Source: Bacteroidota bacterium (GTDB lineage Bacteria > Bacteroidota > Ignavibacteria > Kapaibacteriales > HRBIN21). Taken from it: a DNA stretch of 57,823 bases. The stretch spans positions 1-57,823 of the forward strand of contig JAUQPL010000012.1 of assembly GCA_030550395.1 (NCBI GenBank), in the 5' to 3' direction. Positions 10,385 to 14,233 of this stretch are shown piece by piece. The notes below the pieces were generated by a model. That model did no database searches and had not been told where the DNA came from. It was given only the letters and a program-made list of their open reading frames with translations. The translations under genes and the position numbers were made by a program. The stretch's first letter is position 1, and each line of letters opens with the position of its first letter.

Positions 10385-12235
10385 ATGGAGGAGCAGCGGA
10401 TTTGGATCCTGCCGGAGTTTTTGGCAAGTCAAATTGCAGCTGGCGAGGTTGTCCAGCGTCCGGAGTCGGTCGTCAAGGAGCTGGTAGAGAATGCTCTTGA
10501 CGCTGGAGCTACAACCATTGCGATAACGGTGCATAACGCAGGAAAACGCTTGCTCCATGTCGTGGATAACGGCTGCGGGATGAGCCGAGCAGATTTAGCG
10601 CTCTGCATTCGGCGCCATGCCACAAGCAAGATCCGTAGTGTGGAGGATCTCCATCGGATTCGGACTTTGGGCTTTCGTGGGGAGGCGTTGGCTTCCATTG
10701 CAGCTGTTTCGCAGCTGGAGATCCGTACCCGCCGGGCCGAGGAGCCGATAGGATGGCGCTTGCTTTCCGAGCCAGAGACAGAACCCCGGATTGAACCGTA
10801 CGCCGGCGAGGTAGGAACCCAGGTATTGGTGCGTAACCTTTTCTACAATATCCCTGCTCGTCGGAAATTCCTTCGTTCCGATGTGACCGAATTCCGCCTC
10901 ATAGCCGATACGGTCACGCGCTTTGTGCTGGGGCATCTGACCGTGCGCTTTGTGTTGGCGGATGAGCGTGCGCTCATTCTGGATGTTGCCCCGGGAACGC
11001 TTCTGGAGCGCTTTGCTGCCTTGTTCGGTGAGGAGCTTGCTGGTCGGATGATCCCGATTGAAACGGAGCGTGAGGGGTTCCGAATCTGGGGCATTCTTGG
11101 ACATCCGGAATGTGCCCGTCCGACGCGAGCACAGCAGTTTCTCTTCCTGAATCGCCGCTGGATCCAGCACAAGGGACTCAGTCATGCGGTGTATACAGCG
11201 TACGAGCATCTTCTAGAGAGTGGAACATACCCAATCTTCGTGCTCCACCTTGAGCTGGACCCTGAGCGCGTGGATGTCAACGTCCATCCGCAGAAACACG
11301 AGGTCAAGTTTGAGGATGAGCGCCAGGCCTTTGCAGCTGTTCTCCAGGCAGTCACGGAGGCGTTGAGACAGCACCATTTAGCGCCGGTGGTATCCCTGCA
11401 GGCGGTGCAAGACCCTATCGTAGTAGAACACACGGGGCAGGGACAGCCTCTTTTGGTCAACCGTTTGACAGGGGAATTGATTACTCCGCCGCAAGTGCCT
11501 CCTCGCTCTCAGGGACAATTTCCTCGGGGAAGGGTACCCACGCCGCTGCAGCGTGTTCACCCACAGGTAAAGGCCACACCTTCGGAGACGGCACCCCCTT
11601 TTCCGGAACTGGAGAGAGGCATTCGGTGTTGGCAGGTGCACAATACGTACATCTTTTGGGAAACCCCCGAGGGTATTCGGATTGTGGACCAACATGTTGC
11701 TCACGAACGCATTCTCTATGAGCGCTTCCGTCGGAGGTGGGAGAGCAAGCAGGCGGTACCGCAGCGGTTGTTATTCCCGTTGCCCTTGTCCTTGAGTCCA
11801 GCGCTGGTGCTTGTCGTGGAGGAGCTTTGGGATATTCTCCGGAGTCTTGGCTTTGAGTTTCAGCATCTTCCCTCGGGCGGAGTTGAGCTTGTGGCTGTCC
11901 CGAGCGATATCCCTGCAGGGCATGAAGAGCAGTTCCTCATAGAAGTGTTGGAGGCAGGCGCGGAGGGGGCAGACCCTCAGCATTCTGTGGTTGAGCGCCT
12001 TTTAGCAACCTTAGCCTGCAAGGCAGCCATCAAAGCAGGGCAGCCTCTTTCGGAACATGAGATGGTTACCCTTGTAACGGAGCTGCAGCAGTGCACGATG
12101 CCATACGTCTGTCCCCATGGGCGTCCGGTGGTGGTGGAGTTGCCTCGTGAAGAGCTAGACCGTCTCTTTGAGCGGAAACCTGTGCCCGGAGCGGGAGTCG
12201 AACCCGCACGGGGTTTACACCCCACGGGATTTTAA
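10385..12235 (+). CDS. mutL: DNA mismatch repair protein MutL
   Basis: Couples MutS mismatch recognition to downstream repair and, in this subtype, nicks DNA. The GHKL ATPase is clear: ENALDAG (35-41), DNGCGM (61-66) and TLGFRGEAL (94-102). A variable proline-rich linker spans about 365-410. The C-terminal domain has the endonuclease motif as DQHVAHERILYE (435-446), with valine where alanine is usual, plus ACKAAIKAG and CPHGRP (576-581), so nicking activity is expected. GGAG lies six bases before the ATG. The family normally ends soon after LDRLFER; here about 18 extra residues are read from the antisense strand of tRNA-Leu, and the TAA stop lies opposite the anticodon loop. Confidence 0.95.
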   Translation: MEEQRIWILPEFLASQIAAGEVVQRPESVVKELVENALDAGATTIAITVHNAGKRLLHVVDNGCGMSRADLALCIRRHATSKIRSVEDLHRIRTLGFRGEALASIAAVSQLEIRTRRAEEPIGWRLLSEPETEPRIEPYAGEVGTQVLVRNLFYNIPARRKFLRSDVTEFRLIADTVTRFVLGHLTVRFVLADERALILDVAPGTLLERFAALFGEELAGRMIPIETEREGFRIWGILGHPECARPTRAQQFLFLNRRWIQHKGLSHAVYTAYEHLLESGTYPIFVLHLELDPERVDVNVHPQKHEVKFEDERQAFAAVLQAVTEALRQHHLAPVVSLQAVQDPIVVEHTGQGQPLLVNRLTGELITPPQVPPRSQGQFPRGRVPTPLQRVHPQVKATPSETAPPFPELERGIRCWQVHNTYIFWETPEGIRIVDQHVAHERILYERFRRRWESKQAVPQRLLFPLPLSLSPALVLVVEELWDILRSLGFEFQHLPSGGVELVAVPSDIPAGHEEQFLIEVLEAGAEGADPQHSVVERLLATLACKAAIKAGQPLSEHEMVTLVTELQQCTMPYVCPHGRPVVVELPREELDRLFERKPVPGAGVEPARGLHPTGF

Positions 12236-12268
12236 GTCCCGTGCGTCTACCGGTTCCGCCATCCGGGC
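12183..12268 (-). tRNA. tRNA-Leu (anticodon UAA)
   Basis: The 86-base minus-strand gene folds as a class II tRNA. The acceptor stem is GCCCGGA with TCCGGGC and discriminator A at 12183. The anticodon stem CGGGA/TCCCG holds loop CTTAAAA, with anticodon UAA at 12234-12232. A long variable arm GGGGTGTAAACCCC and a T arm with GGTTCGACTCC follow. CCA is not encoded (the next bases are CAG after the A). It reads UUA and UUG codons. The 3' half, 53 bases, lies antisense to the last codons of mutL. A TATTTTTG box lies 12 bases upstream of its 5' end. Confidence 0.96.
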
Positions 12269-12279
12269 GGTGGCTATCG

Positions 12280-12287
12280 CAAAAATA
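12280..12287 (-). promoter_or_regulatory. TAnnTTTG -7 promoter box for tRNA-Leu (TATTTTTG)
   Basis: The minus strand reads TATTTTTG. Transcription would begin about six bases beyond the box, near 12274, just before the mature tRNA 5' end at 12268. That close fit to a stable RNA supports the box as the promoter core. No -33 TTG is seen. Confidence 0.55.
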
Positions 12288-12368
12288 GCAATGGTTCCGC
12301 AGAGCCAGGGGAGGGGCAATCGCCCGTGTGTGCTCTGCTGGTGAGCATAGTGCATCGGATTTGGCTCC

Positions 12369-12376
12369 TAATTTTG
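12369..12376 (+). promoter_or_regulatory. TAnnTTTG -7 promoter box for lepA (TAATTTTG)
   Basis: TAATTTTG lies 42 bases upstream of the lepA ATG and within the region divergent from tRNA-Leu. The distance agrees with the other boxes in this window (mostly 34-42 bases). No -33 TTG at the usual spacing. Confidence 0.5.
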
Positions 12377-12418
12377 CCTGTTGCCCTGTTGGATTGCCTC
12401 CCTTTCGCAAGGAGCAGC

Positions 12419-14233
12419 ATGGTAAAGGAGTTGGCCCATATCCGCAACTTCTGCATCATTGCGCACATTGATCACGGCAAATCCACGCTGGCAGATCGCC
12501 TGCTGGAGCTCACCGGGAGTGTGAGCTCTCGGGAAATGGTCACCGATCAGATTCTGGATGACAATCCCTTGGAGCAGGAGCGGGGAATCACAATTAAGCT
12601 CCATGCAGTGCAGATGCGTTATACTGCTGCCGATGGGCAGCAGTACATTCTCAACCTGATTGACACGCCGGGTCATGTGGACTTTTCGTACGAGGTCTCG
12701 CGTTCGTTAGCAGCTTGTGAAGGAGCGCTTCTGGTAGTGGATGCAAGTCAGGGTGTGGAGGCGCAAACTATCAGCAATCTATACCTGGCTGTTGAGGCGG
12801 GGCTGGAAATTATCCCGGTCATCAACAAGATTGATTTGCCCAACGCTGCCGATATGATTCCTGCTGTGCAACAGCAGCTTGTTGATCTCATCGGGTGTCG
12901 GCCGGAGGAAATCTTTCTGATCTCTGCAAAGTATGGCACAGGAGTTGAGCGTTTGCTTCCAGCTATCATTGAGCGAATCCCACCTCCCAAGGGGGATCCC
13001 GAAGCTCCGCTGCGGGCATTGATTTTTGACTCTATGTTTGATCCGTACCGTGGGGTTATCGTCTACGTACGTCTCTTTGACGGAAGGCTTCGTGAGGGGG
13101 ACCGCGTGCTATTTTGGGCAACGCAGCAGGTGTATGAAGTCGATGAGGTGGGGGTCAAGTTACTGAAGCGGCAGAGAGCGGGGGAACTGAGTGCGGGTAT
13201 GGTTGGGTACTTTGTTGCCAACATCCGTCGCCTGCAGGATACAAAGGTTGGGGATACGGTCACCCTGGTAGACCGTCCGTGCGAACAACCGGTGCCGGGC
13301 TTCCGAGAAGTCAAACCCATGGTCTTCTGCGGTATTTATCCGGCAAATGCTGAGGATTTTGAAGCTCTGCGAGAGGCTCTGGCAAAGCTGGCGTTGAATG
13401 ATGCTGCTATCGTATACGAGCCGGAGACCTCGGCGGCTTTGGGGTTTGGATTCCGTTGCGGCTTCCTGGGATTGCTCCACATGGAAATTGTGCAAGAGCG
13501 CTTGGAGCGGGAATTCGGGCAGACAATTGTTGTCACCGTTCCCAACGTTCGCTACCAGGTGCTCAAGACTAACGGTGATGTCATCTTCGTGGACAATCCT
13601 GCCCAGATGCCCCCACCGACGCAGATAGAAGAGATCGCTGAGCCGTATATCCGTGCCCAGATTATTACGCCGACCGACTACATTGGGGCTATCCTGCGCC
13701 TCTGCATGGAGCGCCGGGGAACACAGACGGGGATGTCGTATTTGTCGCCAACGCGGGTGGATCTCCAGTTTGAGCTTCCCCTTGCGGAGGTCATCTTTGA
13801 TTTCTACGATAAGCTCAAGTCCATTTCGCAGGGCTATGCCTCTTTTGACTACGAGCTCATAGGGTATCGCCCTGGTGACTTAGTGAAGCTGGACATCCTC
13901 ATCAACGGAGAGCCGGTGGATGCTCTCTCCATGATTGTGCACCGGAGTCGGGCATACGAATGGGGACGGAAGCTCTGTGCGCGATTGCGGGAGCTTATTC
14001 CGCGACAGCTTTTTGAAGTCGTTATTCAAGCGGCGATTGGGTCCCGTGTCATTGCCCGAGAGACGATCAAACCATTGCGGAAGAATGTGTTGGCCAAATG
14101 CTATGGTGGGGATGTCACACGCAAGCGCAAGCTCTTGGAACGGCAAAAGGAAGGGAAGAAGCGGATGAAGCAGATTGGACGGGTGGAGATTCCGCAAGAG
14201 GCATTTCTGGCGGTGTTAAGTATAGAGCGGTGA
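12419..14233 (+). CDS. lepA: Elongation factor 4 (LepA), ribosome back-translocase GTPase
   Basis: The 604-residue protein is full length. The ATG at 12419 is preceded by AAGGAG at 12409-12414. The GTPase motifs are AHIDHGKST (G1), the switch region ERGITIK, DTPGH (G3) and NKIDLP (G4). Domains II and III follow, then the LepA-specific C-terminus with [18 protein letters not shown]. LepA remodels stalled or mistranslocated ribosomes, particularly under ionic or temperature stress. It is followed 11 bases later by the signal peptidase gene; the lepA-lepB order is a common bacterial arrangement. Confidence 0.97.

Follow-up and report, generated by a model that had tools for sequence, protein, structure and literature searches.

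mutL ends within an antisense tRNA-Leu(UAA) gene in two species of a small Kapabacteria genus, probably after loss of its own stop codon

In the genome analyzed here, mutL runs past the normal end of its family into the antisense strand of a convergent tRNA-Leu(UAA) gene and terminates at a TAA codon that is complementary to part of the tRNA anticodon loop. This derived state is common to two of the six genomes of a small Kapabacteria genus that we sampled, namely the source genome (G000) and one of its five congeners (G001–G005), and stops of the ancestral type are found in the other four. Ordinary gene overlap through stop-codon loss, by drift in a compact genome and with a C-terminal tail that is tolerated, very probably explains the arrangement.

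Positions refer to the window, i.e., the whole stretch of DNA that was analyzed (57,823 nucleotides), and the features concerned are as follows:

10385–12235, plus strand: mutL, endonuclease-type, with an extended C-terminus (ORF, TIGR00585, Pfam MutL_C)
12176–12235, plus strand: non-family tail KPVPGAGVEPARGLHPTGF plus stop (absent in four of the six genus members and in solved domains; predicted disordered)
12183–12268, minus strand: tRNA-Leu(UAA) (ARAGORN; Rfam RF00005, 60.3 bits; census of 47 tRNAs)
12233–12235, plus strand: mutL stop TAA, complement of tRNA U33-U34-A35 (sequence; ARAGORN anticodon position)
12280–12287, minus strand: TATTTTTG box just upstream of tRNA-Leu(UAA) (upstream sequences of six genomes)
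12419–14233, plus strand: lepA (elongation factor 4), the next gene on the mutL strand (TIGR01393, E=2.2e-294)

Results

Anatomy of the overlap

The mutL gene is a single uninterrupted reading frame, and its product of 616 aa matches the TIGR00585 profile (E=3.5e-150) and Pfam MutL_C (E=2e-35). The product combines an ATPase domain with a C-terminal domain that carries the motifs DQHV..E....E, ACK, CPHGRP, and FER, as is characteristic of the MutL endonuclease family; DQHV and ACK are slight variants of motifs in the family list, which comprises DQHAX2EX4E, ACR, and CPHGRP (PMC10366529). A spurious ORF of the AntiFam type, i.e., a whole ORF without homology lying on an RNA gene, was considered and rejected, as nearly all 616 residues are bona fide MutL.

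The tRNA-Leu(UAA) gene on the opposite strand is delimited to 12183–12268 by Rfam and to 12182–12268 by ARAGORN, does not encode its CCA end, and is the sole copy of the UAA isoacceptor found in the census of 47 tRNAs of the genome. Across the species of the genus its variable arm varies, with a paired change in the stem, and the remainder of the tRNA is almost invariant.

That mutL ends inside this antisense tRNA, as an initial annotation made from the sequence alone had claimed, is borne out by the coordinates of the ORF and by both ARAGORN and Rfam. The two genes lie on opposite strands with overlapping 3′ ends, i.e., they form a convergent overlap, which extends over 53 nt from the discriminator base to U33 and contains 17 whole mutL codons including the stop, the same 17 that had been described as antisense to the tRNA, as well as two bases of the GTG codon before them. 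The anticodon loop, read along the minus strand from 12236 down to 12230, is C32 U33 U34 A35 A36 A37 A38, and the sequence together with the anticodon position assigned by ARAGORN agrees with the further claim that the TAA at 12233–12235 is complementary to U33, U34, and A35.

The C-terminal tail of MutL

In both G000 and G003, 19 residues follow FER in MutL, versus FxR plus 1–9 residues in the 20 related genomes with a readable MutL end and FxR plus about 2 in those solved MutL C-terminal domains that were matched, which confirms an earlier claim that the tail lies beyond the normal family end. Within the tRNA, the tails of G000 and G003 differ solely at the variable arm (GLH vs GVR), where a C-G pair is swapped for a T-A pair (pairing judged by eye). 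As this pair swap alters the encoded tail residues, the RNA sets the protein here, and the tail sequence is dictated by the tRNA. AlphaFold2 predictions from a six-sequence alignment gave a pLDDT of about 90 for the MutL domain and below 50 for the tail, which fits a disordered stretch that is tolerated behind a finished MutL fold; such a tail would be neutral.

Relatives and the history of the stop loss

The initial annotation had suggested a comparison of gene order and mutL ends among relatives. We found mutL convergent with the same tRNA-Leu(UAA) in all six genus genomes, with the order mutL, tRNA, lepA identical in G001, G003, and G004, and a normal stop ahead of the tRNA in four of the six. 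In these four (G001, G002, G004, and G005), mutL closes with ...FERR and a TAA or TGA that lies 1–20 nt before the tRNA; in G000 and G003 the stop at the family end is missing and the same frame continues to the same anticodon-loop TAA. Among 24 other loci of the order examined outside the genus, no tRNA was found next to the mutL end, one tRNA-Gly being located further away.

A MutL tree from which the tail was excluded grouped G000 with G003 at 98/97, and a topology test on MutL disfavored forcing G000 together with G004 (p-AU 0.013). On this tree the extended state appears derived and would be common to G000 and G003 by descent, so that a single loss of the stop before the two diverged is the most economical history and the one that we infer. 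Two independent losses are less probable and would be in keeping with LepA, which alone does not recover the pair; however, they are at odds with the grouping on the MutL tree, and LepA, too conserved to decide the matter, does not reject the pair either (p-AU 0.22).

When 84,980 species were scanned for the pattern of MutL CPHGRP codons closely trailed by an antisense T-arm, 20 matches were obtained, and among these we found no overlap of mutL with an antisense tRNA outside this genus, a count that is a lower bound since only standard T-arms inside a range of 31 nt were visible to the scan. Long mutL-like frames beside a called tRNA came solely from the Kapabacteria matches, one Leptospiraceae genome, and one Dojkabacteria genome. 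In Leptospiraceae SKYG28 (L035) the mutL stop lies 3 nt ahead of an antisense tRNA-Leu(CAA), and in Dojkabacteria S139_149 (L045) it lies 6 nt ahead of an antisense tRNA-Pro; these are independent near-contacts of mutL with a tRNA.

Stops on the antisense strand of tRNAs

The TAA complementary to U33-A35 is the sole antisense stop of tRNA-Leu(UAA) over all three frames and is the first stop that can be reached once mutL reads on in its own frame. In a survey that covered each of the genome's 47 tRNAs with its surrounding sequence (141 antisense frames), 69 frames contained a stop, and the first stop touched the anticodon loop in 17. The antisense strands of the tRNAs were not found to be unusually open, with 72 of the 141 frames open versus a shuffle mean of 67 (range 53–85). 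U33 is nearly invariant in tRNAs, so that those with U or C at position 34 and A at position 35 carry TAA or TGA in one antisense frame, and 9 of the 47 tRNAs have a stop precisely opposite positions 33–35. Because TAA was the only possible outcome of read-through in the mutL frame and an outcome of this kind is not rare, the position of the stop is unremarkable once read-through is given.

It had also been proposed that mutL termination is fixed by the tRNA. The constraint stands but the fixation does not, since by the genetic code alone the substitutions U33C (giving TAG) and U34C (giving TGA) would each keep a stop, and a single substitution from AAA to TAA at 12176–12178 would restore one ahead of the tRNA; the mutL stop is constrained by the tRNA, not locked.

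A second overlap in the genus

The survey of the 47 tRNAs and their neighborhoods, with Pfam tests of the candidates, revealed one further conserved gene of this kind, a response-regulator/histidine kinase gene that is convergent with tRNA-Arg(CCU) and runs into it in at least four of the six genus genomes (L096–L100). In G000 (contig C11, L096), G002, and G005, the gene terminates 25 bases into the tRNA with a TGA; in G003 it does so 37 bases in, with a TAG that is complementary to C35-U36-A37 in the anticodon loop; and in G001 it stops immediately ahead of the tRNA. With a second locus showing the same kind of overlap, this is a recurrent habit of a genus with compact genomes (1.9 Mb) rather than something peculiar to mutL.

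At the corresponding locus of G004 (G004:C4:167872-168967; L101, L102), the kinase gene is divided between two frames through a frameshift, an error, or decay, and the frame may traverse the entire tRNA. Of ten other tRNA-overlapping ORFs in the source genome, the histidine kinase alone had Pfam support reaching the overlap, and the rest were left uncounted.

Transcriptional context

No terminator-like site was found on either strand in 11900–12600 by a weak scan (0.5 expected by chance), so that transcriptional read-through in either direction is plausible. The -7 box of Bacteroidota has the consensus TAnnTTTG, which the TATTTTTG box just upstream of tRNA-Leu(UAA) resembles; TATTTTCG or TAAATTTG is present at the matching site in four of the five congeners, and a TAttTTtG-like box is thus found in five of the six genomes. 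This resemblance suggests that tRNA-Leu(UAA) may be transcribed from its own putative promoter.

Discussion

In this genus mutL and its tRNA neighbor lie tail to tail, almost in contact. If mutL overran the tRNA through stop loss and drift, the stop after ...FERR would have disappeared in an ancestor common to two of the six species, and the frame would then have extended antisense to the tRNA as far as the first in-frame stop. The anticodon loop supplies that stop, since the run U33-U34-A35 invariably reads TAA on the opposite strand. The 19 added residues would be a by-product of the tRNA sequence, tolerated as a disordered tail, and the overlap itself would have no regulatory role.

A regulatory overlap, in which transcription of mutL or of the tRNA into its partner would lead to antisense RNA or polymerase collision and couple mismatch repair to the supply of tRNA-Leu, would accord with the conservation of the convergent order in all six genomes and with the absence of terminator-like sites from the region scanned, although that scan had low power. 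The order and near contact, however, are present with or without a coding overlap, and the extension adds nothing that such regulation would need. In the four relatives without overlap, mutL still ends 1–20 nt from the tRNA, with lepA beyond it on the mutL strand where the contig shows this gene, so any antisense transcription would be older than the extension and independent of it. Antisense interference between the two genes is possible and would not be specific to the extension; as an explanation of the overlap we consider regulation very unlikely. Recruitment of the extra residues for MutL function, e.g., at the endonuclease site or the dimer interface, is in our estimate still harder to credit: two species have indeed retained the tail, with an identical reading frame, but its sequence is set by the tRNA and shifts where the variable arm shifts, it is predicted to be disordered, and it is missing from four congeners and from the matched solved MutL domains.

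The draft state of both genomes (15 and about 20 contigs) could raise the suspicion that the true stop was removed by an assembly or sequencing error. The initial annotation had allowed that its reading would fall with a relative that has a normal mutL stop together with evidence of such an error; the first of these holds, as there are relatives with a normal stop, but the second does not, as the separate genome G003 has the same extension. Since the two genomes were assembled separately, encode MutL proteins that are 76% identical, and agree in the extension and its frame, with the tRNA intact in each, a sequencing error does not account for it, and the error reading, whose probability appears next to negligible, may be regarded as refuted for practical purposes.

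Stop loss with a tolerated tail leaves room for some use of the overlap, which has been kept in both species over this considerable divergence and was therefore not quickly purged. A broader reading, which we put forward as unlikely, is that tRNAs facing protein genes act as a backstop: their conserved anticodon-loop or T-arm stops would catch genes that have lost their own stop and would be a standing source of C-terminal tails, with overlaps persisting because the RNA holds the backstop in place against mutation.

The overlap does not change what is known of mismatch repair or of tRNAs. It is a clean example of a structural RNA catching a gene that has lost its stop codon, and a single genus shows the states before and after the loss. 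It also carries a warning for annotation, as rules that bar overlaps between coding sequences and tRNAs or that dismiss GVEPAR-like tails as spurious may clip genuine genes or reject them.

Comparison with known systems

The formation of overlaps through stop-codon mutation has been described for prokaryotes (PMC2174442), and convergent extensions of 3′ ends have been catalogued and are mostly limited to close species (PMC2478687). The mutL case is alike in that a stop was lost, presumably once, and reading continues to the next stop inside an opposite-strand neighbor, in close species only; in those studies, however, the neighbors are protein-coding, the term “tRNA” being absent from both texts, whereas the neighbor here is a structural RNA. 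Translations of antisense tRNAs are known as spurious ORFs in AntiFam (PMC9710616) and are filtered by Bakta (PMC8743544). The mutL tail (GAGVEPARG...) is of the type made from an antisense tRNA T-arm, but the AntiFam shadow ORFs are spurious as a whole, while the antisense part of mutL continues a genuine, conserved gene without a break to its end. In the kinase/tRNA-Arg(CCU) overlap a protein gene likewise ends within an antisense tRNA, and the stop of G003 again falls in the anticodon loop, but that overlap is more widespread in the genus (at least four of the six genomes) and shorter. A literature search, with most subscription journals outside its coverage, found no paper directly on coding genes that overlap antisense tRNAs. 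The mutL case joins two known kinds, overlap through stop loss and translation of an antisense tRNA, in a genuine gene.
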